Shown here: one piece after another, positions 4,645 through 62,898 of the stretch
Position numbering within the stretch: position 1 is the first letter of the stretch
Layout: each line of letters opens with the position of its first letter
Assembly (NCBI RefSeq): GCF_050947875.1
Contig: NW_027460335.1
Location: 8,323,928 to 8,387,927 of the forward strand
DNA: 64,000 nt
Direction of reading: 5' to 3'
From: Dermacentor variabilis
Taxonomy: Eukaryota > Arthropoda > Arachnida > Ixodida > Ixodidae
Made by a program: the position numbers and the translations under genes
Notes under the pieces: generated by a model
Database searches by the model: none
Told to the model about the DNA's origin: nothing
The model's input: the letters and a program-made list of their open reading frames with translations, nothing else

Positions 4645-4659
4645 GAAAAAAAGACTCAA

Positions 4660-4751
4660 TCCCCAGTGGCGCAATTGGTTAGCCCACGGTATTTATACTT
4701 CAGTCCTCGTGAGCCATGCCGCGGTTGTGAGTTCGAGCCTCACCTGCGCAA
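4660..4751 (+). pseudogene. Degenerate tRNA-Ile(UAU)
   Basis: Full-length unit directly behind A1. The acceptor 3' strand CTGCGCA gives two mismatches with TCCCCAG, the D stem reads GCCC instead of GCGC, and the base before the anticodon loop is changed (GTATTTATAC). The A and B boxes are mostly kept. Probably not a functional tRNA. Same lesions as 62491-62582. Confidence 0.8.
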
Positions 4752-4856
4752 TGTTCCTTTATATTCGACATTCGACAAAAAAGTCCTCATACGCACGCCG
4801 ATTTATTATTCCATTGTTACCGGATATATGCGCACTTAGGTTCCGGCTGCACTCAA

Positions 4857-4948
4857 TCCCCAGTGGCGCAATTGGTTAGCGCACGGTACTTATACGACAG
4901 TTCTCGTGAGCCATGCCGGGGTTGTGAGTTCGAGCCTCACCTGGGGAA
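4857..4948 (+). tRNA. tRNA-Ile(UAU), intron-containing, intact
   Basis: Best-formed gene of the array and the reference for the others. The acceptor stem TCCCCAG/CTGGGGA has 7 pairs and discriminator A. The A box is TGGCGCAATTGG, the D stem GCGC/GCGC, the anticodon stem CGGTA/TGCCG (one G-U) and the loop CUUAUAA with anticodon UAU. An 18-nt intron (CGACAGTTCTCGTGAGCC) follows the base 3' of the anticodon, the canonical position. The T stem is GTGAG/CTCAC with loop TTCGAGC, and the B box is GTTCGAGCC. An intron here is a known feature of animal tRNA-Ile(UAU). It would decode AUA codons after splicing and A-to-I-independent maturation. The sequence is identical to the gene at 57318-57409. Confidence 0.93.
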
Positions 4949-5053
4949 TGTTCTTTTATATTCGGCATTCGAGAAAAAAGTTCTCATAAGCGCGCCAATT
5001 TATCATTCCACTGTTACCCGATATATGCTCCCTTTGGTTTCTGCTGCACTCAA

Positions 5054-5145
5054 TCCCCAGTGGCGCAATTGGTTAGCGCACGGTACTTATGCGACAGTTC
5101 TCGAGAGCCATGCCGCGGTTGCGAATTCGAGCCTCACCTGGGGTA
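5054..5145 (+). pseudogene. Degenerate tRNA-Ile(UAU)
   Basis: The anticodon is followed by G instead of A (TTATGCGAC), the first acceptor pair is T/T (CTGGGGT), and the T stem is GCGAA. Boxes A and B remain. The spacer after it is cut 24 nt downstream by the 5' end of A2. Confidence 0.75.
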
Positions 5146-5176
5146 ATGTTCTTTTGTATTCGACATTCGGCAACTG

Positions 5177-5961
5177 ATGAACCGGTTCTTCTTTTTTCGA
5201 GACACAAATGACCCATTTCTGCGCACCGTGATTCAAATGAGGCTGTCAAGAGCACTTCCCGAATTTGTAGTAGGTACGGGAATAATGCCAGGATCTGTCC
5301 GCGGTTTCTTTCGGGCAATAGTTGACAGTGTTTCTTTTTTTGCGTGTTCGTTTTTCAAGTGAATATTTGTGGACTGCAAAATGGAAAATGTTATACCGTG
5401 ATTTGTGTGATAGTGTTTTGCTTGTACCCATGTACAGAGCCGTGTACAGTGGAGGCCCAGGCCTAGACGTACTGAAAAGGGTGAAGATGATGCCAGTTCA
5501 ACCAGCCACGAAATCTTTCTTCTTTAAATTACATACCGGTACCTTATCTGTTAAAATCTTCCTGGAAAAACGTGGGTTCTACGTGCCATGGGGAACCCAC
5601 TGCCTTATTTGTAAAAAACCGGAAAGCATAGATTATGTCTTCATCCACTGTTGAGAAGGGGTTTTTTCTGGGACATGTTGCAAAGGACATTAAAGAAGGA
5701 GTTACCGATAGATCCACACGCACTCAGGTTTCTGGCAGTAAATGATGACGAAGGATTCCCGTACGACCTTATCATGCTTACGGGCCTCCACTGTTTATGG
5801 CGTGCAAGAATGGCGGGCTACCATTGTGACCCGGATGCCCGACCGGCGCGTGTATACTTCGAGAATGCATGAAGCGATATGTAGAAGTGCAGAAGTTGCA
5901 ACAGCCTGTTCCTGAGTGGCTGTCGAGGGTTGAACCCCTGACAGCGCTCAAGGAATTTTAA
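5177..5961 (+). pseudogene. A2 ORF2 C-terminal fragment
   Basis: Covers the post-RT region only, from NRFFFFRDTNDPF to the end ALKEF. It has a frameshift in a T run near 5335-5345, an in-frame TGA at 5652 where related copies have Trp (HCW), and a frameshift near 5866. The C-terminal CCHC knuckle (CLICKKPESIDYVFIHC) is visible. The TGA is shared with A8. Confidence 0.85.
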
Positions 5962-6107
5962 TACGACAATGTCATGCCACAGTAGTGGACGGCAACGAAT
6001 GTGTTCATTACTGTTTCTCGTTCGGTTTTTGTATTCATTATTCTTTCTTTCGTTTTTGTGTATATCATTTAAGGAATGTGTGTTGTGGTGACATGTCGAG
6101 GACTGGC

Positions 6108-6113
6108 AATAAA
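6108..6113 (+). terminator. Poly(A) signal of A2
   Basis: AATAAA inside the conserved 3' end CGAGGACTGGCAATAAAG, six bases before the tRNA target resumes. Confidence 0.75.
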
Positions 6114-6119
6114 GAAAAA

Positions 6120-6205
6120 GTGGCGCAATTGGTTAGCGCACGGTACTTATACGACAGTTCTCGTGAGCTATGCCGGGGCTGTGAGTTCGAGCCTCACCTG
6201 GGGAA
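6120..6205 (+). pseudogene. tRNA-Ile(UAU) lacking 5' acceptor strand
   Basis: Starts at GTGGCGC directly after the A2 tail, so TCCCCA is absent. The rest (A box, anticodon UAU, intron, B box, CTGGGGA) is intact. It could be transcribed from its internal promoter but cannot form the acceptor stem unless the preceding A-rich tail substitutes. Confidence 0.8.
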
Positions 6206-6310
6206 TGTTCTTTTATATTCGACATTCGAGAAAAAAGTCCTCATACGTACGCCAATTTATCATTCTATTGTTACCCGATATATACTCACTTAGGTTTCTG
6301 CTGCACTCAA

Positions 6311-6402
6311 TCCCCAGTGGCGCAATTGGTTAGCGCACGGTACTTATATGACAGTTCTCGTGAGCCATGCTGGGGTTGGGAGTTTGAGCCTCACCTGGGG
6401 AA
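6311..6402 (+). pseudogene. Decayed tRNA-Ile(UAU)
   Basis: Full length with perfect acceptor stem and UAU anticodon. The T stem/loop is mutated (GGGAGTTTGAGCC): a mismatch in the stem and C to T in the B box. Confidence 0.75.
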
Positions 6403-6507
6403 CGTTCTTTCATATTCTACATTCGAGAAAAAGGTCCTCATACGCACGCCAATTTATCATTCCATTGTTACCCGATATATGCTCACTTAGGTTTCTGCTG
6501 CACTCAA

Positions 6508-6520
6508 TCCCCAGTGGCAC
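6508..6520 (+). repeat. Left target duplication of A3
   Basis: TCCCCAGTGGCAC. The same 13 bases, including the unusual A (most units read GGCGC), restart at 11374 after the 3' tail of A3. This shared private base is the clearest target-site duplication in the window. Confidence 0.88.
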
Positions 6521-6561
6521 CATTCTGCTTCCGGCTCACGAGCTGAACGGATCGCGGGATC

Positions 6562-7806
6562 ACGAGCTCCAGTGGAGCGGCTTATGCGGCTGTTAGCCGC
6601 GGCAACAGGCTTTCGACATCGGACGATAAGGATTACCAGATTATTTTGCCTCGGCTACCTACAGTACGCATCGTGTTAAACACAGTTTTTTTGCACGGCG
6701 ACACTCGTGTTCGCCCGTTTCGTGTAGAGGATTTTCGGGACGCGCTTCAAGCTCTTGGTATGCTCTTTGGCGTCGTCGCCCTTGGAGCGTACGAAATCAG
6801 CCACGTATGGGCGGTGACGACGAAGACAGCCGAGGCGGCCCGAAAGCTGGCTGCACTGAAGGAGCTTCAGGTCAAGGGGCGTCGCTGCCTGGTCATCGAC
6901 CCTAAAGAACAGCAGGTGAAGCTTCGTCTTCACTGGCTTCTTCATGGTGTGGATGATGAAGAGGTAAAGACTGCGCTGGCTTCCTTTGGCAAAGTCACGG
7001 AAGTAACCCGGGAGCGCTGGCGAGTGGATGGCGTTTCCGACAAGGGCTCGACAACCCGAGCTGTGCTGCTGCAGCTGAAGGCTGGACTGAAAGTCGACGA
7101 CCTGCCCCACCAGATCCGCGTCGCCGGCGAGCTTGCGCTGGTCGAAGCCCCAGGTCATCCTGTGCAGTGCCTGCGCTGCCGGGGACCTGGTCACGTTCGT
7201 CGAGAATGTAAGGTTCCCCGTTGCTCCCGGTGCAGGCTTTTCGGACACAGCGACACGGACTGTGTACGTTGATACGCAGTAGCCGCGGGGTCGGCGGAGA
7301 GCGAGCCGTTGACATCAGACCACATGATGGACGTGACCGAGGCCGAGGAAGCGGCCAAGGGAGCTGGAAGCGGCAATGCGGTGGCAGAAGCGAGCGGGAC
7401 GACGACGCCGAATAAAGGAGGACCGAATAATGTCCCTCCTCCCGACGAGCCAGAAACCGCACTAATCAGCGTCAGGGTGGCCCAGAAAGAAAATGAGAGC
7501 CGCCAGCCGGCTACTGATTCTACGGATGCAGCGGAAAACGACAACGCGACCCCTGCTAGCGCCCGCGTCGAAAGCGTCTCGGCTACGGTGAAGAGGTCCC
7601 TGCAGCAGGAGGAGAAAGTCGACGGAAAGGCCAGCGGTGACTCCGAGGCGCCGCCGGCTAGGACGCTACCCGGAAGGCGCTCCACCCTCAAGCCTAAGCC
7701 TAACCTGGAGGCTGACCGTAGGCTCACCCCGAAGCCGACCAAAGACGAACTCGGACGACGGCCACCGGCCACCGGATGGCCACAGAGGTGTCTAGAGGTC
7801 AGCTAG
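6562..7806 (+). pseudogene. A3 ORF1 (CCHC gag-like), start lost, one nonsense codon
   Basis: Aligns along its whole length with A10 ORF1. The start codon is ACG instead of ATG (6562). The frame is then open to a TGA at 7270, just after the second zinc knuckle (DCVR*, where A10 reads DCVRSYAV), and resumes to 7806. Knuckles CLRCRGPGHVRREC and CSRCRLFGHSDTDC are both intact. The upstream part (VRPFRVEDFRDALQ, LHWLLHGVDDEEVKTALASFGKV) looks like two RRM-like folds, which I infer from length and pattern only. The basic motif GRRSTLKPKPN is present. A small duplication near 7765 alters the last residues. Confidence 0.88.
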
Positions 7807-7823
7807 ACGTTAAGGTGAGCACC

Positions 7824-7853
7824 ATGCTCCGGGCCTTCTCCCCTCCCGTCTAA
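7824..7853 (+). other. Mini-ORF between ORF1 and ORF2 of A3
   Basis: ATG in CACCATGC context followed by nine sense codons (MLRAFSPPV) and TAA, seven bases before the ORF2 ATG. The same mini-ORF lies in A10 (42995-43024) and a related one in A5 (15477-15503, MLRAYLIL). Confidence 0.55.
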
Positions 7854-7860
7854 ATCAGTA

Positions 7861-10800
7861 ATGGCTATCAACCCGTCGCTTAGCCTCGGCACGCTAAACG
7901 TTCGAGGTCTGGCCGCCAAAAGGAAACAGAGTCAGGTGTATAGACTGCTAGTGGACCACGACCTCGACATTTTAGCAGTGCAAGAAACCAAGATGGACGG
8001 CGAGGAGGAGACCGGGAGCATGGTGCAAAGCTTCACGTACAACTACTATACGGTAGTGAGCCACGCCTTAGGGACTTCGGCGGGATGTGTCTTCTTCGTG
8101 AGGAAGCTTCCAGGCCTGGTTATAGACGGTTACTTCTCGTGCTCTTCCGGTCGACATGTCGTTTGTGATTTCAGCTATTGCGATGTCCAATGGCGCGTGC
8201 TGTGCATTTATGCGCCTAATACAGTGCAAGAAAGGGTAAATTTCTTTTTGAACTTGAAGCACCACTTCTCTGTGCACAAAACGATAGCCTGTGTTGGAGA
8301 CTTCAATTGTGTATTGAACATCGAGGATAGGTCTACGCGACGCGTAATTTACGACAAAAGCAGCGATATCATGGCGCAGATCATACACGAGTTTGAATTA
8401 GAGGATATCGCTCAGTGTTTCGGTGCTGACCGAGAAGTGAGGTACACCCACTTCCAGGGAATAAGTCATGCACGATTAGACCGTATCTATCTATCATATC
8501 AATCAGTAGAAAAATGCCAGTGCTATACAGTTACTGCCGTATCCTTTTCTGACTACTGCCTGGTAAAATGCAGGGTGGGCCGCAAAAAAGAACGAAAAGA
8601 ATTCGTCTGGGAACTGTGGAAAATGAATGCTGAGCTTCTACGGGATGATACTTTTAACGAAACGGTAGTGAATGCTCTGAATTCTTTTGGAAAAGACAGT
8701 TCTATGAAGTTGGGCGAGGAATGGGAGCTGTTGAAACAAACTATTAAAATCAAGGCGATTAAAAGAAGCAGCGTACTACGACATGAAGACAAGGCAAGAG
8801 AAAGGAATTTAAAAACATACTGGAAAAATTTGTGACGCTCGAATGCATGCAACCCGGCGCTTATCAAGAAGATATACGTGCTATTAAGAAAAAGCTCAAG
8901 GTTTTCGATGAAGAGCGTTATCGAGGCGCGCTCGTTCGTGCGAGAGCAGGAAGACTAGCATGCGGGGAAATGCCTTCGAAAAGAGCACTGGGATTAGAAA
9001 AAAAGCACTCCAGACGCAAACAGATTGAGGCCATCGAATATAACGGGGTGGTAGTAACTGATATGAAGAATATAGGGCGCGCCTTCATTGAACATTTCCA
9101 AAAGCTTTTCGCATTCAGGCACGTCAACATGCAATGTTTCAAGCACTTATTTTCGCAGCGAATGCCACAGCTGTCGAGTGACGTTAAAGAAACGTTGGAA
9201 GGCCGAATAACTGAACAGGAAGTGATAAAGGCCATCGAAGACCTGAACCTTGGCAAGTCACCAGGTCCAGACGGTCTTTGTGCCGCTTGGTACAAATCGT
9301 TCAAAAGCCACTTAGCTCCTATCTTGACCGCAGTTTTCAATGAATATTACGAAATGAAAATATTTCCACCATCCTTCGGCCAGTCCCATACAGTACTAAT
9401 ACCTAAAACAGAAGAGACCGAGAAGCTCAAGCAACTTTCCTCCTATAGACCCAAAGCGCTTACTAACTGCGACTACAAAATACTGATGAAGGTGCTGGCA
9501 CGGCGTATGCAGTCAGTCATTAAGGAAGCAGTCGGCCCACACCAGACGTGTGGCATTCGCGGAAGAACCATCTTCACTAACATTCATAAGTTGAAGTGTG
9601 TGCTGGAGTGTTGTGATGCCATGTGTGATGCAGTTGCGATCCTCCAGCTTGACTTGGAGAAAGCGTTTGATTGCGTTTCTCACGAGATATTGCTCACCAT
9701 CCTTGAACATGTTAATTTTGGCCACATAATCACTGAGGGGGTGCCCATGGCGTACCGGAGTTGCTATAGGAGACTTACAATTAATCAAACGCGGGGGCCC
9801 CCATTAACATGAAGCGCTCCGTTCGCCAGAGTTGTCCACTCAGCCCACTCCTGTTTTGTGTTTACATAGAAACGCTATGTCAGGCCATCATTGAAAATGA
9901 ATACATTAAGGGATTTTTCCCCCAAGCAGCAGAGGTGAAGTTATTGGCATATGCTGACGATGTGGCTGTATGTTGTAAAGATACGCAAAGTGTATTGAAC
10001 GCCGAGAGTATCGTCAGGCAGTTCGGTAATGCCACTAATAGCTTCGTGAACTGGCAGAAATGTTTGGGGTTTTGGCACAGGGGATGGGCGTCCACACCAG
10101 ACCACTTTTTGAACGTCACCTGGGTCACGACGCCAGTTAAGTACCTTGGCGCACCCCTTGATGCCTACAAGGACAGTAGCGAGTACTGGAAGGAGCAGAC
10201 CAAAGAAATAAAAGAAAAAGCCGACCGATGGAACGCCGGCCACCTTTCAATGTTCGCGAAAGCAACAGCGTGCAACAGTTTTCTCGTAACAAAGATCTGG
10301 TACGTAATGCAGGTCCTACAGTGCTCTCGGATTAATGTGCAGAAACTGCATCGCGTGTTCGCTGTTTTCGTGTGGGCATCGAGCTGGGAGCGATGTAGCC
10401 AAGATAATCTCTTCCGGCGCGTGAAGGATGGTGGTCTGGGGTTGGCGCACCTCTTCTTGCGTCAACTAGTAAACAGGTTCTTCTTTTTTCAAGACACAAA
10501 TGACCCATTTCTATGCACCGTTATCCAAATGAGGTTGTCAAGATCACTTCCCGAATTCGTTGTAGGCACCGAAACAATGCCAGGACCAGTTCGTGGTTTC
10601 TTTCGGGAAATAATTCAGAGTGTTTCCTTTTTGCGTGTTCGTTTTTCCAGTGCATATTTGTGGAGTGTAAAACGGAAAAAGTTATATCGTGATTTATGTG
10701 ACAGTGTTTTGCTGGTACCCATGTACAGAGCCCCGTACAGTGGAGGCCCAGGCCTAGATGTATTGAAAAGGGTGATGAATATGCCAGTTCAACCAGCCAC

Positions 10801-11254
10801 TAAATCGTTCTCCTTTAAATTACACACCGGTACTCTACCTGTTAAAATCTTTCTTGGACAACGTGGGTTCTACATGCCATGGGGAACCCACTGCCTTGTA
10901 TGTGAAAAAACAGAAAGCATAGATCATGTCTTAATCCACTGTTGGGAAGAGGTCTTTTTCTCGGACGTGTTACAAAGGACTCTAAAAAAGGAGCTACCTA
11001 TAGATCCCCACGGAATCAGGTTTCAGCCGGTATATGACGACGAAGGTTTCCCGTACGACCTGATCATGCTTACGGGCCTCCACTGTTTATGGCGTGCAAG
11101 AATGGCGGGTTGCCATTGTGACCCGAATGCCCGACCGGCTCGTCTATACACTTGTGAATGCATGCAACGGTATGTCGAAGTGCAGAAGTTGCAACAGCCT
11201 GTTCCTGAGTGGCTGTCGAGGGTTGAACCCCTGACAGCACTAAAGGAATTGTAA
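7861..11254 (+). pseudogene. A3 ORF2 (APE-RT polyprotein), two frameshifts
   Basis: Target-primed reverse-transcription enzyme. ATG at 7861 (MAINPSLSLGTLNVRG). APE motifs: LNVRG, VQETK, IYAPN, GDFNC, FSDYCLV (the usual SDH is SDY here). A 1-nt deletion near 8815 and another near 9795 split it into three frames with no other stop. RT motifs: GKSPGPDGL, SYRPKALTNCDYK, LQLDLEKAFDCV, RQSCPLSPLLF (Gly of the beta consensus changed to Ser) and YADDVAV near 9950. The C-terminal knuckle CLVCEKTESIDHVLIHC and the shared terminus ALKEL close it. Length without the shifts is about 1,131 codons, the norm in this window. Confidence 0.92.
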
Positions 11255-11356
11255 TCCGACAACGTCGAGCCACAGTTGCGGATTCATTCCTTTTTGCTTC
11301 TTTGGTCTTTGTTTATATCATTTAGGAATTTGAGTGGTGATATGTCGAGGACTGGC

Positions 11357-11362
11357 AATAAA
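11357..11362 (+). terminator. Poly(A) signal of A3
   Basis: AATAAA in CGAGGACTGGCAATAAAGG, eleven bases before the element end. Confidence 0.75.
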
Positions 11363-11373
11363 GGAAAAATAAA

Positions 11374-11465
11374 TCCCCAGTGGCACAATTGGTTAGCCCA
11401 CGGTACCTATACGACAGTTCTCGTGAGCCATGCCGGGGTTGTGAGTTTGAGCCTCACCTGGAGAA
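11374..11465 (+). pseudogene. Decayed tRNA-Ile(UAU)
   Basis: Regenerated by the A3 insertion. It carries GGCAC in the A box, GCCC in the D stem, CCTAT around the anticodon (U33 to C), TTTGAGCC in the B box and a C/A mismatch in the acceptor stem (CTGGAGA). Unlikely to be functional. Confidence 0.78.
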
Positions 11466-11576
11466 TGTTCTTTTATATTCGAGAAAAAAGTCCTCATACG
11501 CACGCCAATTTATCGTTCCATTGTTACCCGATATATGCTCACTTAGGTTTCTGCTGCACTCAATCCCCAGTGGCAC
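11374..11576 (+). repeat. tRNA-Ile array T3 (one unit plus partial)
   Basis: Single tRNA, a shortened spacer (ATATTCGAGAAAAAAG without the usual GACATTC) and a 13-bp piece TCCCCAGTGGCAC (11564-11576) joined to A4. The short spacer and CTGGAGA acceptor variant recur at T9 before A11. Confidence 0.88.
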
Positions 11577-13884
11577 CGCAGTTCACGAGAGGACTGTCTT
11601 TTTTGAATTTATTAAGCAACACCTGAACACGGAAAGGCAGCTCATTCTGTTGGGTGACTTCAATTGTGTTCTGAGCGCCGATGACAAAACTAGTGCGCGT
11701 ACTTTCAGGGATAGTAGTAAGGTCGTTCTTATTCGATTAATTGATGAATTTGCTTTAGAGGACGTGGGAGAATGCCTGGTGCGCAGGTGCCCAGTAAAGT
11801 ACACTCATTTCCAAGGTACCAGCCACGCCCGAGTCGACAGGATTTACGTGTCTGCATGTTTGGTCCCAAAGTGTCATGGCTTTGACGTAGTGCCCGCGCC
11901 CTTCTCGGATCACTGCATGGTTGAATGTTTCATAGGCGCAAAAAAGTGAAGCAGCTGTTTTCAGTGGGGTCTTTTGAAGTTAAACAACAAACTGCTCTAT
12001 GATCAAGAATTCGCTAAGGGAGCGGAGGAAGAAATTAGTAAAGTCACTGGAGGGGGAATACATGAATTGGGCCAGGAATGGGAACTGTGCAAGCAACAGA
12101 TAAAAATAAAAGGAATTGAAAGGGCGAGCTGCATACAGTACCAAGAAAAATTAAATGAAACGCAGTTAAAGTCTATGCTAGAAAAATTATTAGTTCTGGG
12201 GTGCAAGGCACCGGGGTTATACATGAAAGACGTTAGGAAAATAAAACAAAAATTATAAATTCATGATGAAGAACGCTATCGTGGAGCGCTTGTGCGCGCG
12301 AGAGCTGAACATCTTGCCGTGGCGGAGACGCCCACAAAACGGGCGCTAGGGATGGAAAAAGCGCACACAAGAAGGAACCATGTCCCTGAGGTACAATGGG
12401 CGAGCCGCACCGCAACAGATAATAGAGAAATCGGGCAAGCTTTCTTTGAGTATTACCAGGCATTGTTCGATTTGCGTTATGTCGACCTGGACCGGTTTAA
12501 AGAATCGTATCTGCGGGCTATGCCACGACTAGACGAGGAACAAAAAGCAAGACTGGACACGGCCATTAGCGAGCAGGAAGTAGAGCGTGCAATAGATAAT
12601 TTAAACCCTGGAAAATCGCCTGGGCCTGATGGCTTGAGTGCAGCCTTCTACAAAGCTTTCAAGCAACAACTAGCTCCATTGCTGACTGCGGTATTCAATG
12701 AGGCATATGAAATAAATGTTTTAGCTGTGTCGTTTGGAACGTCACATACTGTACTTATTCCGAAAACCGACAAAGTAGATAAACTTAAGCAGGTATCGTC
12801 ATACAGACCTATCGCTCTGACAAACGTAGACTACAAAATCTACATGAAGGTTCTTGCCAGGAGATTACAGACTGTTATAGGCGAAATAGTTGGCCCTCAT
12901 CAAACGTGTGGGATCAAAGGCCGTTCCATCGTTCACAACATTCACAAGGCGAGGTGTGTACTTGAATGCTGTGACGCCACATATGCACGTGTCGCACTAC
13001 TACAATTAGATTTGGAAAAGGCATTTGATTGTGTGCCACATTATATTCTGTTTTGCATCCTGGACTACATCAATATAGGTTCGGTCATCCGAGAGGGAGT
13101 GAGCTTGGCGTACCGTAACTGCACTACGAGGCTACTTGTTAATAAGTTGCTGGGGGCCCCCATAAACGTACGACGTTCGGTGCGCCAGGGTCGCTCCCTC
13201 AGCCCTCTGTTGTTTGATATATATATTGAGGCACTGTGTCTGAACATAATGCAAAGCGATGAAATTCATGGATTTAGACTACAAGCAATCGAAGTGAAAT
13301 TGCTTCCGTATGCAGACGATGTTGCAGTTCTTTGCAGGGACAAGGAAAATGTTAGTAAAACAGTTGAAAGGGTGCAGTGCTTCAGTGAGCTAACCGGAAG
13401 CCGGGTCAATTGGGATAACTGCCTGGGATTTTGGCACGGAGAATGGCCTTCAACCCCAGAAACTTTTGCCAACGTGGCTTGGGTGACAACGCCTCCGAAG
13501 TACTTGGTGGTGCCGCTGCAATTTTATAGAGACACTGATCCGTACTGGTGAGCGCAGCTGCATGAGACGCGAGAAAAAGCGGACACATGGACAAGCGCTC
13601 ATCTATCAGTGTTCGCAAGAGCTACGGTGTGCAATATTTTTTTATTAGTAAGTTGTGGTATGCAATGCAAGTGCTACACTGTTCCCGAGTAAACGTGCAG
13701 AAGCTGCACCGTGTATTTGCTGTCCTTGTTTGGGCGTCCACATGGGAGAGGTGCAGCCGCACGAACTTGTTTCGACAGGTGAAGACCGGTGGTTTAGGAC
13801 TGGGATATTTGTTTGTGCGACAGATTGTAAACAGGTTTTTATTTTTCCTTGATGTTAGAGACCCATTCCTGCGCACCGTGTGTC
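11577..13884 (+). mobile_element. Family A copy A4 (gamma), truncated at both ends
   Basis: Starts inside the APE domain directly behind TCCCCAGTGGCAC, a normal 5'-truncated insertion junction identical to that of A11. It ends abruptly at GCACCGTGTGTC|CTCAAAGTCC, where tRNA spacer takes over. It therefore lacks its 3' end and tail, and the right junction must come from recombination or deletion, not from retrotransposition. Confidence 0.85.
11577..13884 (+). pseudogene. A4 ORF2 fragment (APE end, RT)
   Basis: Begins at VFFEFIKQHLNTERQLILLGDFNC. Interrupted by TGA at 11947, TAA at 12256 and TGA at 13549, each of which is a sense codon in A11. Between them lies a long open RT segment (12292-13551): GKSPGPDGLSAAFYK, SYRPIALTNVDYK, LQLDLEKAFDCV, RQGRSLSPLLF (Cys of RQGCPLS changed to Arg), LPYADDVAVLC. 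The post-RT part ends within FLRTVC. Confidence 0.87.
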
Positions 13885-13964
13885 CTCAAAGTCCTCATAC
13901 GCACGCCAATTTATAATTCCATTGTTACCCGATATATACTCACTTAGGTTTCAGCTACACTCAA

Positions 13965-14056
13965 TCCCCAGTGGCGCAATTGGTTAGCGCACGGTACTTA
14001 TATGACGGTTCTCGTGAGCCATGCCGGGGTTGTGAGTTCGAGCCTCACCTGGGGAA
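13965..14056 (+). tRNA. tRNA-Ile(UAU), intact
   Basis: All stems pair as in the gene at 4857. The 18-nt intron is TGACGGTTCTCGTGAGCC, with TG instead of CG at its start and one A to G change. Good A and B boxes, discriminator A. Confidence 0.9.
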
Positions 14057-14161
14057 TGTTGTTTTATAATTGACATGCGAGAAAAAGGTCCTCATACGCA
14101 CGCCAATTCATCATTCCATTGTTACCCGATATATACTCACTTAGGTGTCTGCTACACTCAA

Positions 14162-14175
14162 TCCCCAGTGGCGCA
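14162..14175 (+). repeat. Left target duplication of A5
   Basis: TCCCCAGTGGCGCA, repeated exactly at 19465-19478 after the A5 tail: a perfect 14-bp duplication covering the 5' acceptor strand and the A-box start of the tRNA. Confidence 0.88.
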
Positions 14176-14217
14176 GGATTCTGCTTCCGGCAGCCGAGCT
14201 GAGCGTTCAGCGGAATC

Positions 14218-15447: not shown

Positions 15448-15476
15448 CCGAGGGCTGGTCGTGAAGGGTAAGCACC

Positions 15477-15503
15477 ATGCTCCGGGCCTACCTTATACTT
15501 TAG
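15477..15503 (+). other. Mini-ORF between ORF1 and ORF2 of A5
   Basis: CACCATGCTCCGGGCCTAC.. codes MLRAYLIL then TAG, six bases before the ORF2 ATG. It is preceded by GGGTAAGCACC. The first five codons match the beta copies although the rest has diverged. Confidence 0.5.
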
Positions 15504-53100: not shown

Positions 53101-53597
53101 AGATCATGTCTTCATCCACTGTTGGGAAGGGGTCTTTTTCTGGGACGTCTTACAAAGGACTCTAAAAAGGGAGCTACCTATAGATCCCCACGGAATCAGG
53201 TTTCTGCCAGTATACCACGACGAAGGTTTCCCGTACGACTTGATTATGCTTACGGGCCTCCACTGTTTATGGCGCTCAAGAATGTCGGGTTACGATTGTG
53301 ACCCGGATGCCCGACCGGCGCGTCTGTACTTTTGTGAATCCATGCAACGGTATGTGGAAGTGATCAAGATGCAACAGCCTGTTCCTGAGTGGCTGTCGAG
53401 GGTTGAACCCCTTACAGCACTAAAGGAATTTTAATCCGACAACATCGTGCCACAGTAGCGGACGGCAACGAATGTAAATATTACTGTTCTTTGTTTCGTT
53501 TGTGTATTCATTCCTTTTTGCTTCTTTGTTCTTTGTTTATATCATTTAGGAATTTGTGTTGTGATATGTCGAGAACTGGCTATAAAGAAAAAGAAAG

Positions 53598-53689
53598 TCC
53601 CCAGTGGCGCAATTGGTTAGCGCACGGTACTTATACGACAGTTCTCGTGAGCCATGCCGAGGTTGTGAGTTCGAGCCTCACCTGGAGAA
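53598..53689 (+). tRNA. tRNA-Ile(UAU), one acceptor mismatch
   Basis: All arms are good except C/A in the acceptor stem (CTGGAGA). Intron CGACAGTTCTCGTGAGCC, variable region GAGGTT. Better preserved than its counterpart at 11374. Confidence 0.8.
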
Positions 53690-53800
53690 TGTTCTTTTAT
53701 ATTCGAGAAAAAAGTCCTCATACGCCCGCCAATTTATCATTCCATTGTTACCCGATATATGCTCACTTAGGTTTCTGCTGCACTCAATCCCCAGTGACAC
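53598..53800 (+). repeat. tRNA-Ile array T9 (one unit plus piece)
   Basis: Single tRNA, short spacer lacking GACATTC, and TCCCCAGTGACAC (53788-53800) joined to A11. Counterpart of T3. Confidence 0.88.
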
Positions 53801-56800
53801 CGCAGTTGACGAGAGGACTGTCTTTTTTGAATTTATTAAGCAACACCTGAACACGGAAAGGCAGCTCATTCTGTTGGGTGACTTCAATTGTGTTCTGAGC
53901 GCTGATGACAAAACTAGTGCGCGTACTTTCAGGGATAGTAGTAATGTCGTTCTTATTCGGTTAATTGATGAATTTGCTTTAGAGGACGTGGGAGAATGCC
54001 TGGTAAGCAGGTGCCCAGTTAAGTACACTCATTTCCAAGGTACCAGCCACACCCGACTCGACAGGATTTACGTGTCTCCATGTTTGGTCCCAAAGTGTCA
54101 TGGCTATGACGTAGTGCCCGCGCCCTTCTCGGATCACTGCATGGTTCAATGTTTCATATGTGCAAAAAAGCGAAGCAGCTGTTTTCAGTGGGGTCTTTGG
54201 AAGTTAAACAACAAACTGCTCAATGATCAAGAATTCGGTAAGGGAGCGGAGGAAGAAATTAGTAAAGTCACTGGAGGGGGAATACATTAATTGGGCCAGG
54301 AATGGGAACTGTGCAACCAACAGATCAAAATAAAAGGAATTGAAAGGGTGAGCTGCACACGGTACCAAGAAAAACTAAATGAAACGCAGCTAAAGTCTAT
54401 GCTAGAAAAATTATTAGCTCTGCAGTGCAAGGCACCGGGGTTATACATGGTCGACGTTAGGAAAATAAAACAAAAACTAGAAATTAATGAAGAAGAACGC
54501 TGTCGTGCAGCACTTGTGCGCGCGAGAGCTGCACATCTTGCCGTGGCGGAGACGCCCACAAAACGGGCGCTAGGGATGGAAAAAGCGTACGCATGAAGGA
54601 ACCATGTCACTGAGGTACAATGGGCGGGTCGCACCGCAACAGATAAGAGAAATCGGGCAAGCTTTCTTTGAGTATTACCAGGCATTGTTCGATTTGCGCT
54701 ATGTCGACCTGGACCTGTTTAAAGAATCGTATCTGCGGGCTATGCCACGACTAGACGAGGAACAAAAAGCAAGACTGGACACGCCCATTAGCGAGCAGGA
54801 AATAGAGCGTGCAATAGATAATTTAAACCCTGGTAAATCGCCTGGGCCTGATGGCTTGAGTGCAGCGTTCTACAAAGCTTTCAAGCAACACCTAGCTCCA
54901 TTGCTGACTGTGGTATTCAATGAGGCATATGGAATAAATGTTTTACCTGTGTCGTTTGGAACGTCACATACTGTACTTATTCCGAAAACCGACAAAGTAG
55001 ATAAACTTAAGCAGGTATCGTCATACAGACCTATCGCTCTGACAAACGTAGGCTACAAAAACTACATGAAGGTTCTTGCCAGCAGATTACAGAGTGTTTG
55101 TTATAGGCGAAATAGTTGGCCCTCATCAAACGTGTGGGATCAAAGGCCGTTCCATCGTTTATGACATTCACAAGGCGAGGTGTGTACTTGAATGCTGTGA
55201 CGCCACATATGCACGTGTCGCACTACTACAATTAGATTTGGAAAAGGCATTTGATTGTTTGCCACATTGTATTTTGTTTTGTATCCTGGACTACATCAAT
55301 ATAGGGTCGGTCATCCGGGAGGGAGTGAGCTTGGCGAACCGTGACTGCACTACGAGGCTACTTGTTAATAAGTTGCTGGGGGCCACCATAAACGTACGAC
55401 GTTGGATTCGCCAAGGTTGCCTCCTCAGCCCTCTGTTGTTTGATATATATATTGAGGCACTGTGTCTGAACATAATGCAAAGCGTTGAAATTCATGGATT
55501 TAGACTACAAGCAACCGAAGTGAAATTGCTTGCGTATGCAGACGATGTTGCAGTTCTTTGCAGGGACAAGGAAAGTGTTAGTAAAACAGTTGAAAGGGTG
55601 CAGTGTTTCAGTGAGCATACCGGAAGTCGGGTGAATTGGGATAAGTGCCTGGGAATTCGGCACGGAGAATGGCCTTCAACCCCAGAAACTTTTGCCAACG
55701 TGGCTTGTGTGACAACGCCTCCGAAGTACTTGAGGGTGCCGCTGCAATTTTATAGAGACACTGATCCGTACTGGGGAGCGCAGCGGCAAGAGACGCGAGA
55801 AAAAGCGGACAAATGGACAAGCGCTCATCTATTAGTGTTCGCAAGAGCTACGGTGTGCAATATTTTTTTTATTAGTAAGTTGTGGTATGCAATGCAAGTG
55901 CTACATTGTTCCCGAGTAAACGTGCAGAAGCTGCACCGTGTATTTGCTGTCTTTGTTTGGGCTCCATATGGGAGAGGTGCAGCCGCACGAACTTGTTTCG
56001 GCAGGTGAAGGCCGGTGGTTTAGGACTGGGACATTTGTTTGTGCGACAGATTGTAAACAGGTTTTTATTTTTCCGTGATGTTAGAGACCCATTCCTGCGC
56101 ACCGTGTGTCAACAACGACTCCAGGAAGTTTTGCCTGAGTATGTTGTTACAGCGCAATGTATTTCAAGAAGTGTTTGTGGTTTCTTTAGAGAAATTGTTC
56201 AAAGTGTCAAATTTCTAAGTGTACGTTTTTCGATGCAGCATTTAAGTAGCGTTAAAAGGAAAACATTGTATAGGAATGTTTGTGACGCGCTGTTTCCAGT
56301 GCCTTTGTACAGGATCATACACTCTGGAGGCCCAGGTTGCAGTGTTCTAAAAAGAGTTAAAAGAATGCAGGTGTCGCCGGGAGCCAAATCTTTCTTTTTC
56401 AAGTTACACACTGGAACTTTAACTGTTAAGTCCTTTCTAAAGGAAAGGGGTATACTTCTACCGTGGGGTTCCCACTGCCTTATATGCAAGCAGCTTGAGA
56501 CAATAGACCACGTTTTTCTTCATTGCTGGCAAAGGGTATTTTTCTGGGATGAGCTCCAAAGAAACATTAAAAAAGAATTACCGCTAGACTCTCACGGGAT
56601 CCGGTACCTGCCAACCGATAATGAGGATGGCGTCCCCTTTGACTAGATTATGCTGATGGGTCTCCACAGTATATGGCGCTCCCGAATGGCTGGCTATTTT
56701 TGTGATTCGGACGCGCGACCAACACGTATGTATTTTCGCGAAGGCGTACACAGATTCCTGGAGACTTTGAAAGTGCAAACAGATGTTCCTGAGTGGATGT

Positions 56801-56832
56801 CAAGGCCTTTGGTAGAGCTCCGGGAATTTTAA
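53801..56832 (+). pseudogene. A11 ORF2 fragment (APE end to C terminus)
   Basis: Open from VFFEFIKQHLN through LLGDFNCVL, FSDHCMV to TAA at 54288, TGA at 54594, a shift near 55098 (GVCYRRNSW), a shift near 55965, and TAG at 56644. RT motifs: GKSPGPDGLSAAFYK, SYRPIALTNVGYK, LQLDLEKAFDCL, IRQGCLLSPLLF, YADDVAVLC near 55540. Knuckle CLICKQLETIDHVFLHC intact. Ends VELREF, unlike the ALKEF of alpha and beta copies. Confidence 0.88.
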
Positions 56833-56932
56833 AGATGACAACGCCAGGCCTCAGTGGCCGTTAGGCCACTTGTGCTTTCTGGCGCACTATATATTTTGTG
56901 TACTTTTGTCGTATTCTGTGTCGAAGACCGGC

Positions 56933-56938
56933 AATAAA
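56933..56938 (+). terminator. Poly(A) signal of A11
   Basis: AATAAA in CGAAGACCGGCAATAAAA. Confidence 0.72.
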
Positions 56939-56943
56939 AAAAA

Positions 56944-57029
56944 GTGGTGCAATTGGTTAGCGCACGGTATTTATACGACAGTTCTCGTGAGCCATGCCGG
57001 AGTTGTGAGTTCGAGCCTCACCTGGGGAA
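56944..57029 (+). pseudogene. tRNA-Ile(UAU) lacking 5' acceptor strand
   Basis: Starts GTGGTGCAATTGG after the A11 tail. GGTATTTATA alters the base before the anticodon loop. Confidence 0.77.
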
Positions 57030-57127
57030 TGTTCTTTTATATTCGAGAAAAAAGTCCTCATACGCACGCCAATTTATCATTCCATTGTTACCCGATATAT
57101 GCTCACTTAGGTTTCTGCAGCACTCAA

Positions 57128-57219
57128 TCCCCATTGTCGCAATCGGTTAGCGAACGGTACTTATACGACAATTCTCGTGAGCCATGCCGGGGTTGTGAGT
57201 TCGAGCCTCACCTGGGGAA
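57128..57219 (+). pseudogene. Decayed tRNA-Ile(UAU)
   Basis: Reads TCCCCATTGTCGC and AGCGAACGG; several stem losses. UAU anticodon and B box remain. Confidence 0.75.
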
Positions 57220-57317
57220 TGTTCTTTTATATTCGAGAAAAAAGTCCTCATAGGCACGCCAATTTATCATTCCATTGTTACCCGATATATGCTCACTTTC
57301 GTTTCTGCTGCACTCAA

Positions 57318-57409
57318 TCCCCAGTGGCGCAATTGGTTAGCGCACGGTACTTATACGACAGTTCTCGTGAGCCATGCCGGGGTTGTGAGTTCGAGCCTCA
57401 CCTGGGGAA
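57318..57409 (+). tRNA. tRNA-Ile(UAU), intact
   Basis: Identical over all 92 bases to 4857-4948, intron included, although 52 kb apart. Confidence 0.93.
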
Positions 57410-57553
57410 TGTTCTTTTATATTCTAGAAAAAAGTCCTCGTACGCACGCCAATTTATCATTCCATTGTTACCCGATATATGCTCACTTAGGTTTCTGCTG
57501 CACTCAATCCCCAGTGGGATTCCACTTCCGGCCACCACAGCTGCGGACGCGGA

Positions 57554-58791
57554 ATGTCGGCTCCCGCAAGGGCGGTGTTTGCGGCCCAAAAGGGCCGCGG
57601 TATCAGGTTTATGGATGCTGCTACACAGCAGTACCAGATTATTTTGCCGCAATTGCCGAAAGGTGCGACCGTCTCTAATACCGTCTTCTTGCACGGGGAT
57701 GTCAAGGCGAGGCCCTATCGCGTAGAACATTTTCGAGACGCGCTAGCTCGTCTGCAGTTGATGTCGGAAGTGTTGGCTTTAGGAGCCTATCAAATGAATC
57801 ACGCATGGGCCTTCAAAGGACCTTCAAAGATGAAAAAGGAAAGCAGAAGTTGCTGTCTACGGAAGCGTTAACTGTGAAGGGTGAGCGATGTTTGGTGATT
57901 GAACAACGCAACCAAGACGTACGCATGAAGCTCTACTGGCTGCTGCACACCATACCAGATGAGGACGTGTGAGCGGCGCTGGCACCCTTCGGAACAGTGA
58001 CCGAGATGTCAAAGGAAAAGTGGCGTGTAGCCGGATGCAGTGACAAAGGGTCGCACACAAGACTCGTGTCCTTATGCTTGAAACCTGGCCTCACCAGAGA
58101 AGATCTTGCGCCTCAGCTACGTGTCAGCGAGGACCATGCACTCGTGTTGGTGCCTGGCAGAGCAGCGCTCTGCCTCCGGTGTCACGGCACGGGTCACATA
58201 CGACGCCAGAGCCGCGTTTTACGTTACGGGATCTGTCGTCGCTTCGGCCACGAAGATACCCAGTGCGTGCGAAGTTACGCGAATGTGACAGGGTTTGGCA
58301 AGAGCGACGTGATAAACGAACACCTAATGGACCAAGCTGACGCAGAGTACACAGCTGGGGAGGGCGAGGTCCAGCCTAACTCTAGACGAGGCGCCAGCCG
58401 CTACGAGCCATGACAAAGAGCAGCAGGAGGAAGCCAGCAAAGAAGAAAATATGGCACAGAAGCAGGCGACAGAAAGCAGCAAAGAAGGCGAAGCTGTGCT
58501 CGGAACCGCCGAGGAGACCATGGACGACAGCCCTGGAATCATTGGGAGCAGGGCAGAGGCGCTGAATAGCGGCCACTCTACCGCTGTCTCAGAAAAAAAC
58601 CCCGAGACGAAAGCGTTGGAAATATTTGAAAACGAGAAGACCTGAGTGCAGCTGAAGGACCACCTGCCACGACTACCACCTCTCGGCGGCTTTCGCTGAA
58701 GCCCTAACCGAACGTGCCACCGGACAAGAGGTCACCGCCGGCAGTGTCCCTCCCTTAGGGGGCCCGCTGGTTGGTAGTAAAGAACGAATGA
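57554..58791 (+). pseudogene. A12 ORF1 (CCHC gag-like)
   Basis: ATG 57554 (MSAPARAVFAAQKGRGIRF), 36 nt from the element start. A deletion near 57810 shifts frame after NHAWA; TGA at 57970 (A1 has CGA). Open 57997-58413 with first knuckle CLRCHGTGHIRRQS (last Cys lost) and second CGICRRFGHEDTQC. An extra base near 58384 shifts the acidic linker; TGA at 58643. The terminal basic motif RRLSLKP is cut by TAA at 58706. Confidence 0.87.
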
Positions 58792-58822
58792 ACTGAGGTT
58801 GGACGTGTTGGTTGCAGTTTCC

Positions 58823-61800
58823 ATGATGTGTGCCGACAAGGAGGACGCGACGGCTTCGACCAGTGTGGCGGAGCCATTTAACGATGTCGTCCAGTCCAGG
58901 GCTGTAAGTCCGTTAGCAGTAAAATTGCATCAGGTGCCAAGTAGTCCGTCTGTCCCTCAGCTTTCTAAACATGGTTTCAAAATAGGTACACTCAATGTGC
59001 CTGGCCTGTCGACGAGAAAGCGGCAAGCTCAGCTTAAAAGGCTGTTAATTGACCATGACATTGATATTCTTGCAGTTCAGGAAACAAAAATTGAAGGTGA
59101 GGAACAGACGGATAGAATGGTTGAAGGGTTTAAACCCAATTACAATGTTTGTGTTAGTCATGCTAATGAGAAGTCTGGAGGATGTGTTATTGTTCTGCGT
59201 AACACTGTCGGTATTATTGAGGAGACTGTAGTAGCAATCCATAATGGCCGATTAGTTATGTGTGACCTGTCTTGCAATGAAGTAGACTGGAGAATTATCT
59301 GTATTTACGCCCCGAACAAAGCAAGCCAGCGAAAAGTGTTTTTTGAATATATGGCCACCTTCATAAGTTGTGATTGGAGAATTCTTTTATTAGGTGATTT
59401 TAATTGTGTATATTTGCCTTAGTACACCTCTACAGATGTGTTCATGAACGACAAGAGTGCAGAAATGCTCAGATCCACCGTTCAGGAGTATGACCTTGTT
59501 GATGTGGGTGATGTACTACGTGAAAAACAAGTAATGGTCACTCATTTTCAAGGGTGGAGTCACGCAAGGTTCGATAGGGCGTATGTGTCCGCGGAACTGG
59601 TACCCACTTGTAATCAGTACACGGTTAAACATGTTAGCTTTAGTGACCACAGTTTAGTGATGTTCACAATCGGTTCTAAAGTGAAGGAGTGTCGTTTTAA
59701 TTGGCAGCTGTGGAAGTTCAATGAAAAGTTGCTACAGGACGAAAGATTCGTCGACGAAGTAACGGAAAGAATTAAAGAATTGCGCGCAAGAGAACCTAAA
59801 CATTGGTTCTATGCGTGGGATCAATTTAAAAGCGAGGTTATAAATATAGCAATTCAAAGGGCGCGTGTATTAAGCCGCCAGGCTAAACAGCGCGAAAAAG
59901 AACTAAACAGTACGCTGAAGTATCTGGTAGATGTTGAAAGCGCAGTCCCTGGGCATTTTACAACTTAAATAAAAACAAAAACAAAAGAGCAGCTGGAAGC
60001 CATTCAGACTGAAAGATACGAGGCAGCGGTAGTAAGATAACGCGCCGAGCGAATTTGGTTAGATGAAGCCCCGACGAAACGGGCACTCGCAGACGAGAAG
60101 AGATATGCGACAAAGAAACAAATTAAGGAAATTTGCTATCGCGGCGTTCTTTCACGTGATCAAGAAACCATTCGAGGCGCTTTCGACGAAAGGTACTCTA
60201 ATTTGTTTAACAGTAAGGCAGAAATAATTGAGGAGTGCAAGACATCTTTTGCCACTCGTGCCAGTACTGCAGGACGAAGTAAAGACGGAACTCGAGAAAC
60301 CTATAAGTATTGAAGAGTTAGAACGAGCAATCGATGAGCTTAGTTAGACAAAGGCTCCGGGGCCCGACGGCCTAGGGCCTAGCTTCTACAAGTTTTTCAA
60401 GCGTCAAATGGCGGAAATACTCTACACCATCATAACTGAAGCGTACGAAGTTAAACGACTGCCTCCATCTTTCAGTTCCAGCCATATCGTCCTGATACCA
60501 AAGACTGATGAGCCTGCCAAGTTGCAGTCGACGGAAGCATATCGACCAATTAGTCTCACGAACGTTGATTGTAAGATGCACATGAAGGTCCTGGCCAAAA
60601 GGCTTCAGTCAGTTATTACATCTGTTGTTGGCCCACATCAGACATGTGGTGTTAAGGGGAGAACGATATTAACAAACATCCACACAGCCAGAAGTGTTCT
60701 CGAGTGCTGTGACGTAACCCTCGGACACGAGGCAATGGTACAGTTAGACCTCGAGAAAGCCTTCGATAAGGTTGCCCACAGTATATTGTTTCCTCTGCTC
60801 GAACACATCAACATCGGAAAAGTTCTTCAAGAAGGCGTGCGAATGGCATACGCAGACTACAGTGCAAGGCTGATAATTAACAACAAGCTGAGTTCTAGTA
60901 TACCGGTTCGGTCGAGTGTGCGTTAGGGTTGCCCGGCCTCGCCCTTGCTTTTCGCAATATTTCTGGAGCCATTCTGTTTAAAGGTGTTGCACAACAAGAA
61001 GGTCAATGGATTCCGACTTCATATGCACGAAGTTAAAATCCGGTCATATGCTGATGGCATAGCCATTTTTTGTGGCGATCATGACAGCATTGTTGAGGCA
61101 GTGAAAGACGCAAAAATGTTCTGTAAACTTACTGGTAGTGCCATAAGCTGGTAGAAAAGCATGGGTTTTTGGCACGGAGAATGGGAAAGTACGCCTGCTT
61201 ATGTGGAAAACATCAAATTCATTCAGAGGCCCTCTCGATATCTAGGAGTCCCATTGGAACACTACCGCGATGGAAAAACGCATTGGGTAGGTGAAATAGA
61301 ACGAGTCAAACCACAGACGGTGAAGTGGGGAGGTCACAACCTGTCTATGCTCGGACGTGCAACTGTGTGTAATTTGTTTCTGGTTGCAAAGGTGTTCTAC
61401 CTACTGCAAGTTTTATGTATGTCCAGAGTATGCGTGCAGAAGTAGCACCGAATTTTTGCTGTTTATATATGGGGATCACCATGGAAGCGCACAACTCGTT
61501 TAAATTTGTTCCATCCCATGCTCAAAGGAGGCTTGGGCCTATCTCATTTATTCCTAAAGCAGGTAGTTTCAAGTTTTTGTTTTTTACGAGACCAAAGAGA
61601 TGGTTTTTTGCGGTCCGTAATTCAATGGCGATTGTGTGATGCGTTGCCCGATATCATTGTGACGTCACATGCTGGTCCTAAGGAAGCGATCAAAGGCTTC
61701 TGGTCAGAGGTGGTGAATGCTTATCGCCTCCTCAGTGCCCATTTTTACGCAGATTACTTGCATACTGCAAAACGAAAACGATTGTATAAAGACTTATTAG

Positions 61801-62353
61801 ATATTATGTGCCCAGTGCCTGGGTACCAAGCTCTGTATAACTTAGGACACGAAAAGGACGTAATGAACCGGGTGAGAAAGATGCCTGTGCAGGCGACCAC
61901 TAAATCATTTTTCTTTTGTTTGCACACTGGTCGCTCCCTGTCAAGCCGTGGCTCCAAGAGAAAGGATTCTTCCTTCCTTGCAGCGTTAACTGCAACATTT
62001 GCCAAAAGCCTGAAACAATAGAGCACATATTCCTAGACTGCTGGGATTCAGTATTTCTGTGGAACATTCTCCAGCGAACAATTAAGAAGGATTTACCGTT
62101 GACCACATTTGGTATTAAGTTCTTGCTGTTGACTGACTTAGAGGGAGTGCCGTGTGATATGGTGAGGCTCCTCTGCATGCACAGCGTATGGAAAACTAGG
62201 ATGGCTGCAAGAATTGAGGAGGTGAATCCAAGACCAGCCAGGGACTATTTCATTGACAATATTATTTATGTGCGCGAAGTCTTAAAAACCCAAACAGAGC
62301 CACCAGACTGGCTACCTATCCTTGATCAGCTAGTGATGATCAAGCAATTTTAA
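58823..62353 (+). pseudogene. A12 ORF2 (APE-RT), dead delta copy
   Basis: ATG 58823 (MMCADKEDATAS..), equivalent to 994 in A1. APE: GTLNVPGLS, VQETKIEG, IYAPNKA, LLGDFNCV intact here, FSDHSLV. Stops shared with A1: TAA near 60038, TAG at 60345, TAG at 61152, TAG near 61443. Private stops: TAG at 59420 and TAG at 60924 (RQG to R*G). YADG replaces YADD (near 61049), as in A1. The C-terminal knuckle CNICQKPETIEHIFLDCW is intact and the frame ends MIKQF at 62353. Confidence 0.9.
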
Positions 62354-62469
62354 CTAAGCTCCACATTCGAATGCGCAGCGGTTCCTTTTTTGACATCACT
62401 GCATATGTGGAATTCAGAGATTGAATTTGTGCTTTATATATCCGTATATGTACAGTTCTCAAAACAGGA

Positions 62470-62475
62470 AATAAA
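62470..62475 (+). terminator. Poly(A) signal of A12
   Basis: AATAAA in AAAACAGGAAATAAAG, as in A1. Confidence 0.7.
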
Positions 62476-62490
62476 GAAAAAAAGACTCAA

Positions 62491-62582
62491 TTCCCAGTGG
62501 CGCAATTGGTTAGCCCACGGTACTTATACTACAGTCCTCGTGAGCCATACCGCGGTTGTGAGTTCGAGCCTCACCTGCGGAA
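62491..62582 (+). pseudogene. Degenerate tRNA-Ile(UAU)
   Basis: TTCCCAG with CTGCGGA, D stem GCCC, intron TACAGTCCTCGTGAGCC-like. Counterpart of 4660-4751. Confidence 0.77.
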
Positions 62583-62688
62583 TGTTCCTTTATATTCGAC
62601 ATTCGCGAAAAAAAGTCCTCAAACGCACGCCAATTTATCATTCCATTGTTACCGGATGTATGCGCACTTAGGTTCCGGCTGCACTCAA

Positions 62689-62780
62689 TCCCCTGTGGCG
62701 CAATTGGTTTGCGCACGGTACTTATATGACAGTTCTCGTGAGCCATACCGGGGTTGGGAGTTCGAGCCTCACCTGGGGAA
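62689..62780 (+). pseudogene. Decayed tRNA-Ile(UAU)
   Basis: TCCCCTG breaks an acceptor pair, TTTGCGC changes the D loop/stem border, ATACCGG and GGGAG weaken the anticodon and T stems. The B box is kept. Confidence 0.73.
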
Positions 62781-62898
62781 TGTTCTTTTATATTCGACAT
62801 TCGAGAAAAAAGTCCTCATACGCACGCCAATTTATCATTCCATTGTTACCCGATATATGCTCACTTAGGTTTCTGCTGCACTCAATCCCCCGTGGCAC

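Follow-up and report, generated by a model that had tools for sequence, protein, structure and literature searches.

Several mobile elements are known to insert at transfer RNA (tRNA) genes. The dictyostelid non-long-terminal-repeat (non-LTR) retrotransposons TRE5/TRE3 and NLTR-A/NLTR-B target tRNA genes, with TRE5 lying 40-54 bp upstream, TRE3 40-150 bp downstream, NLTR-A 2-6 bp upstream and NLTR-B 39-64 bp upstream of the mature sequence (PMC5006619, PMC5911963). Other elements are isotype-specific, namely NeSL-1_TV (tRNA-Pro), LIN15_SM (tRNA-Arg) and LIN25_SM (tRNA-Glu) (PMC4640811), and Dewa targets the spacer of tRNA-Leu (PMC3706591). Dada DNA transposons insert inside tRNA genes, and in some P. 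marinus families the duplicated stretch is bases 8-13, within the A box (PMC3706591, PMC8869645). Among target-specific long interspersed nuclear elements (LINEs), the Tx1 and R1 groups are the users of an apurinic/apyrimidinic endonuclease (APE) (PMC4640811). All of these statements follow the accessible excerpts of the articles. Here, we analyzed 64,000 nucleotides of the tick Dermacentor variabilis (the window hereafter; assembly GCF_050947875.1, contig NW_027460335.1, positions 8,323,928 to 8,387,927 of the forward strand), in which LINEs interrupt an array of tRNA-Ile(UAU) genes. Our analysis indicates that a tick lineage of APE-type LINEs very probably uses target-primed reverse transcription to insert at one fixed 5' position in tRNA genes of many isotypes. 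No report of a tRNA-gene-targeting LINE in ticks or chelicerates was found in the open literature (Repbase and subscription papers lay outside the search), and the accessible parts of PMC10886601 and PMC5035012 contain no case of this kind.

Copies outside the array carry the main evidence. The host assembly comprises 2.48 Gb in 605 contigs; the window's contig is labelled C87 and copies bear L-numbers. A first genome search, with open reading frame 2 (ORF2) of window element E25 as query, returned 46 rows, 44 of them outside C87; the 3' flanks of 40 were read, four fragment rows being omitted. A second search, with the reverse transcriptase (RT) of E24, returned 58 rows, 56 outside C87, of which 20 high-scoring ones were read, omitting the rows at C11:113 Mb. 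Both searches score the best candidates only and hence do not give a genome total. Two of the 60 flanks (L046 and L067) were masked, with N behind the tail, leaving 58 readable. An A-tail followed by a tRNA gene in sense orientation was present in 51 of these 58 (33/38 in the first set, 18/20 in the second). ARAGORN called the tRNA gene within 14 bp of the tail in 32 + 15 flanks, and Rfam added L063, L121, L124 and L126. The targeted genes belong to 17 amino-acid families (Ala, Arg, Asn, Asp, Cys, Glu, Gly, Ile(AAU), Leu, Lys, Met, Phe, Pro, Ser, Thr, Trp and Val); L034 and L052 received odd ARAGORN labels (SeC and Gly) inside Ser and Glu arrays, and Ser, Gly and Glu are each also targeted elsewhere.

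A different LINE, nested in the window at 33849-38838 on the - strand, served as a control. Its genome search gave 44 rows, one of which was the window's own, and neither ARAGORN nor Rfam detected a tRNA in the 190 bp around the 3' end in any of six copies among the 43 rows elsewhere. The comparison of 51/58 with 0/6 yields a Fisher P of 2e-5, a value to be read with the caveat that the 51 are not all independent. Eight loci of other RT genes also showed no tRNA, though these loci need not reach element ends.

These data bear on the isotype range of the lineage, which the first-pass annotation, made from the letters of the window alone, had taken to be specific for tRNA-Ile(UAU) genes. Every copy in the window, and in the 196-kb array that contains it, conforms to such a specificity. 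Outside the array, however, tRNA-Ile(UAU) was called behind the tail in none of the 58 readable copies, and the 51 adjoin different tRNA genes, with the internal position unchanged; moreover, among copies sharing 95-97% ORF2 identity with E25, insertions occur at Leu, Arg, Ala, Asn, Asp, Ile(AAU) and Met genes. We therefore consider that the lineage targets tRNA genes as a class and that the window happens to be a tRNA-Ile(UAU) array, and we regard specificity for this one isotype as very improbable. It is refuted for the sampled subfamilies; array subfamilies not sampled elsewhere could still be Ile-specific. What stands of the annotation is that an APE LINE lineage enters tRNA genes at a precise site, which is duplicated, and bears the signs of target-primed insertion.

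The junctions at dispersed sites are confined to a narrow register. Of 46 tabulated rows, 44 had the tail meeting the tRNA between bases -7 and +4, including 22 at exactly base 1. The outliers were L124, whose tRNA was missed by ARAGORN and matched by Rfam from model position 4, and L122, which was 14 bp off. The table omits L118 and L110; the tail of L110 was not found by the script, and by eye it leads to tRNA base 1. We also read the 5' flanks of 38 of the 40 first-set copies, leaving out the masked L046 and L067, and scored by script a duplication of at least 12 bp with at most one mismatch. Duplications were scored in 29 of the 38 pairs, of which 26 involve tRNA genes, two (L042 and L061) tRNA-like sequence and one (L032) a non-tRNA site. 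They represent 23 distinct targets and measure 12-18 bp, apart from one of 25 bp that includes A's of the tail. Those in tRNA genes span base about 1 to 12-17 and end inside the A box, for example GTCAGGATGGCC in tRNA-Leu, AGGCCCGAGTAGCTC in tRNA-Lys, GCGTCGGTGGTTCAG in tRNA-Gly, TCCTCGTTAGTATAGT in tRNA-Asp and GTCCGCGTGGCTTAA in tRNA-Arg. The flank pair L061/L100, in a tRNA-like repeat, has a duplication of 15-17 bp. Nine pairs had no scored duplication; for six of them (L035, L036, L038, L043, L059 and L062) no 5' end was located in the sequence read. The 5'-truncated L034/L074 shows a duplication by eye only and is excluded from the 29. As in target-specific non-LTR elements, most copies share one site with a duplication, as judged from 51/58 flanks and from 29/38 pairs, 26 of them in tRNA genes.

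At the 5' end, 0-7 extra bases, mostly G, precede a near-conserved head such as ATTCCACTTCCGG. Extra 5' bases of this kind are expected if a capped RNA end gets copied. Column composition around the top-strand cut revealed no consensus except a G-rich column at offset +1, and it was not used as evidence.

The same register recurs in the array around the window, whose limits were read from 100 kb added on each side. The array extends from -85,652 to +110,529 in window coordinates and holds about 93 unit-equivalents of 197 bp in 41 blocks, separated by 40 interruptions (E-numbers). Each unit consists of a 92-bp tRNA-Ile(UAU) gene called by ARAGORN plus a spacer, on the + strand throughout the window; this gene length suggests an intron-like insert of about 18-19 nt. 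The interruptions are mostly LINEs, in the window in the same orientation as the tRNA repeat. Six window elements with a visible 5' head (E22, E24, the second part of E27, E28, E30 and E31) begin behind position 10 to 16 of the tRNA, and downstream of tails the tRNA resumes at base about -6, 1 or 6, in agreement with the first-pass annotation, which had placed the starts within bases 10-17 and the tails near base 1. The three flanking duplications it cited were likewise recovered on both sides: TCCCCAGTGGCGCA of E24, with 14 perfect bases (14162-14175, 3' copy 19465-19478); AGTGGCGCAAT of the second part of E27, whose first A is ambiguous with the tail (29878-29888, 3' copy 41491-41501); and TCCCCAGTGGCAC of E22, in which a private G-to-A change is present in both copies (6508-6520, 3' copy 11374-11386). 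E30 adds ACTCAATCCCCAGTGG (57502-57517), with one mismatch in the 3' copy at 62485-62500. Window coordinates of elements, duplications and array blocks refer to the + strand here and below.

In 34 of the 40 interruptions along the whole array, the tRNA resumed on the 3' side between unit positions -7 and +8, an interval that takes up 15 of the unit's 197 bp (P about 2e-32 under a uniform model); E04 and E17 are among the 34 but have no A-tail at the 3' junction. The six exceptions were E13, E23, E26, E32, E35 and E38. On the 5' side, the upstream unit stopped at unit position -4 to 20, again in 34/40, the exceptions being E06, E08, E10, E11, E21 and E27.

Local duplication of one ancestral tRNA-LINE unit, that is, a satellite, would produce such a pattern as a by-product, and large blocks of the window are indeed 94-96% duplicates: 1-5070 resembles 57822-62902 (96%) and 7927-13884 resembles 50134-56110 (94%). 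When the interruptions were clustered on the final 700 bp of each with an 85% identity threshold, however, they fell into 16 sequence groups, 13 of which (E04 included) still had the 3' junction in the interval (P about 1e-12); the remaining three groups (E13; E23 + E32; E26) have no A-tail at the junction. Similarity between groups is often no higher than about 65-75%, so local duplication does not explain the site common to them. The duplications also carry unit-specific variants. At tRNA base 10, which varies between G and T, the 5' and 3' copies matched in 22 of the 24 usable elements, out of 28 anchored on both sides (permutation P 0.0005, an optimistic value because some of the elements are relatives). 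Agreement of the two flanks is as expected of target-site duplication. Finally, copies lie at different tRNA loci on other contigs, with their own duplications. The first-pass annotation had reasoned that copies lying mostly outside tRNA-Ile genes would trace the association to local duplication of the array. Copies elsewhere do lie outside tRNA-Ile(UAU) genes, but local duplication alone is not the cause; we reject it on the divergent groups, the unit-specific variants and the dispersed loci with their own duplications, and give this explanation next to no credence.

As read from the junctions, insertion is in the sense orientation of the tRNA; one strand is cut around tRNA base 1 (base 4-8 in some subfamilies), and the second cut lies at base 12-17, within the A box. 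Two fixed cuts, the duplication, the 3' A-tail and some 5' truncation are together the hallmarks of target-primed reverse transcription. Where the register is base 1, the duplication places a complete tRNA gene directly behind the A-tail, and with a complete gene rebuilt there the site can be targeted again. Head-to-tail elements, one directly behind the tail of the other, are found at window position 29878 and at L070/L030. Tandem tRNA arrays would be to this lineage the niche that ribosomal DNA (rDNA) is to R1/R2.

How the site is recognized is less certain. We modestly favor a direct reading of the A box, in which ORF2 would recognize the A-box region itself rather than being tethered by TFIIIC/TFIIIB. 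Two features agree with a direct reading: the cut falls within the tRNA, where TFIIIC would be expected to cover the DNA, and tRNA-like repeats are used as well. On the other hand, many isotypes with differing 5' sequences are targeted at one architectural position, which suits a tether by the RNA polymerase III (Pol III) machinery, with TFIIIC or TFIIIB on the tRNA gene, and not the DNA sequence, bringing in the element. Such tethering is reported for TRE5-A and Ty3; in the accessible text of PMC5911963, ORF1 of TRE5-A binds TFIIIB subunits and requires the B box. Tethering would leave the tRNA-gene target unchanged and is a serious contender, though we place it below an even chance. Against it, both cuts fall at or inside the tRNA coding region, DNA that TFIIIC would presumably cover, and the elements tabulated in the portion of PMC5911963 available integrate outside the tRNA. 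The non-tRNA insertion L032 supports neither mechanism. Returning to a direct reading of the A box, we give slightly better than even chances to the combined account: the target would be the gene class, read through the A box and cut at base 1 and at 12-17; a full tRNA gene would often be regenerated, making insertion nearly cost-free without using up the target; tRNA arrays in ticks would act as rDNA does for R1/R2; and one branch would have moved to a tRNA-like repeat.

Several observations weigh against a general tRNA-gene target or temper its support. Four of the 58 flanks (L042, L059, L061 and L062) carry tRNA-like sequence called by neither ARAGORN nor Rfam, and three (L032, L113 and L119, the last with no tail found) have no tRNA. 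L032 sits at a non-tRNA site with a duplication and is therefore a real insertion there. The 51 positive flanks come from best-scoring copies and are not all independent: L056, L057, L058, L064, L065 and L068 have one upstream flank in common, as do L036/L038. L050/L089 and L055/L094 have intact heads and flanks without a matching duplication. In addition, the subfamilies in the base 4-8 register (L121, L124 and L126, and several in the array) leave the downstream tRNA without its first bases.

We noted further features around the dispersed copies. At least two tRNA genes occur in 31 of the 58 readable 3' flanks, which are 500-1500 bp long, mostly of one isotype and at a spacing of about 140-470 bp; Glu and Gln labels alternate in the flanks of L066 and L114. 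Four tandem tRNA-Ser(GGA) genes with 281-bp spacing (L025:1660-2576) lie about 15 kb 3' of the last tRNA-Ile unit. L059, L061 and L062 represent one LINE subfamily at the same internal position of a tRNA-like repeat (CTCGTGGCTGAGTGGTAGCG...), which is perhaps a tRNA-derived short interspersed nuclear element (SINE). The available text of PMC3160391 describes the tick SINE Ruka as tRNA-Ser-like with Pol III promoters, a likeness to this repeat by description only.

The proteins are those of an L1/Tx1-type APE LINE: ORF2 combines an N-terminal APE (PF03372), an RT (PF00078) and a C-terminal zinc motif. In E24, ORF1 (409 aa) occupies 14218-15447, the endonuclease part of ORF2 (Exo_endo_phos, PF03372) 15510-16547, and the RT (PF00078) with zf-RVT (PF13966) 17002-19323; in E25, a 1036-aa open frame at 21752-24862 comprises the APE end, RT and zf-RVT. 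The best solved structural relative of ORF2 is human L1 ORF2p (237 bits vs 107 for R2), and the best matches of the endonuclease part among solved structures are also L1. Because the nested control LINE likewise scores L1 (117) over R2 (71), this preference alone does not fix the clade, and no named Tx1 reference was among the 120 matches listed. E24 ORF1 has two predicted RNA recognition motif (RRM)-like folds (Foldseek best E 1.7e-5, TM-scores below 0.45, in a model of modest confidence with a mean pLDDT of 59.5) and a weak zinc-knuckle match, zf-CCHC below the Pfam cut-off; two other ORF1s had none. Among the best 120 of 201 protein matches, ORF1 relatives occur in Dermacentor, Amblyomma, Haemaphysalis, Rhipicephalus and Ixodes, and among the best 120 of 448, ORF2 relatives are listed for Ixodes. 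The ORF1 relatives of Amblyomma and Haemaphysalis bear near-consecutive LOC numbers (e.g. LOC144123956, 958, 960, 966), which suggests that they are clustered there too. Scans of viral-contig and genome-contig collections returned no locus of the lineage.

Within the window, elements and array blocks alternate. E20 (1-4653) is a near-copy of E30 whose 5' end lies about 300 bp upstream of the window; it is followed by a block of 2.58 copies of the 197-bp unit (4660-5169) and by the fragment E21 (5170-6118), which lacks its 5' part and has its 5' junction in the spacer at unit base 115. A block of 2.06 units (6119-6524) leads to the full-length E22 (6521-11371; A3 in the first-pass annotation), and one of 1.07 units (11372-11574) to the fragment E23 (11575-13887), without an A-tail at its 3' junction. 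After 1.46 units (13888-14175) comes the full-length E24 (14176-19462; A5), then 4 units (19463-20249) and the 5'-truncated E25 (20250-24982), which shows a short palindrome, GCAGAATGAACAGCTTCATTCTGC, at its 5' junction (20250-20285). A block of 4.1 units (24983-25789) precedes the fragment E26 (25790-28677), again without an A-tail at the 3' junction, and a rearranged block (28678-28927) begins at unit base 55. The first part of E27 is a LINE fragment (28928-29877) whose tail is followed directly by tRNA base 6; its second part (29889-41490; A9) is a LINE with intact head and tail and a nested different LINE. After 1.06 units (41491-41699), E28 (41696-53597) retains head and tail and contains nested insertion(s). 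A block of 1.05 units (53598-53796), the 5'-truncated E29 (53797-56942), 2.97 units (56943-57507), the full-length E30 (57518-62484) and 2.08 units (62493-62902) follow, and E31 (62899-64000) is cut by the window end. Two different LINEs are nested within the tRNA-targeting ones, the control element on the - strand and another at 47219-49030 on the + strand.

Since the lineage uses a fixed spot at the tRNA 5' end and an intact tRNA gene often remains behind the element, multi-copy tRNA arrays can offer it a safe home, as rDNA does for other site-specific elements; this also bears on how large tRNA arrays are maintained in ticks. Site-specific LINEs are models of target recognition and candidate gene-insertion tools, and in an animal, an element that inserts at the 5' end of many tRNA isotypes and often keeps the gene whole would act as a natural safe-harbour inserter. 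It also makes testable whether an APE endonuclease recognizes the Pol III A box by itself or depends on Pol III factors to reach it.

To our knowledge, the targets of R1/R2 and the Tx1 group are single sequences (ribosomal RNA, small nuclear RNA, repeats), and none is a gene class with a common promoter. The accessible part of PMC4640811 points to a likeness, the use of multicopy RNA genes as a safe site. With NeSL-1_TV, LIN15_SM, LIN25_SM and Dewa, as far as the excerpts describe them, the tick elements share the habit of site-specific non-LTR insertion at tRNA loci; each of those elements is tied to one isotype, and NeSL/LIN are discussed with the restriction-like-endonuclease group, whereas the tick APE lineage reaches 17 amino-acid families. 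Dada differs, in the text available, by its DDE transposase, 6-bp duplications and family-specific isotypes. The TRE and NLTR elements likewise target tRNA genes generally, and the ORF2 of TRE also has APE, RT and a zinc finger (PMC5006619, PMC5911963, in the parts accessible). TRE-type integration at a distance outside the tRNA was not found here: junctions lay at -7 to +4 in 44/46 rows, and tRNA sequence was duplicated. Unlike the dictyostelid elements, which in the same sources insert outside the tRNA and, for TRE5, in the opposite orientation, the tick cuts span base about 1 to 12-17, duplicate tRNA sequence and occur in an animal host.

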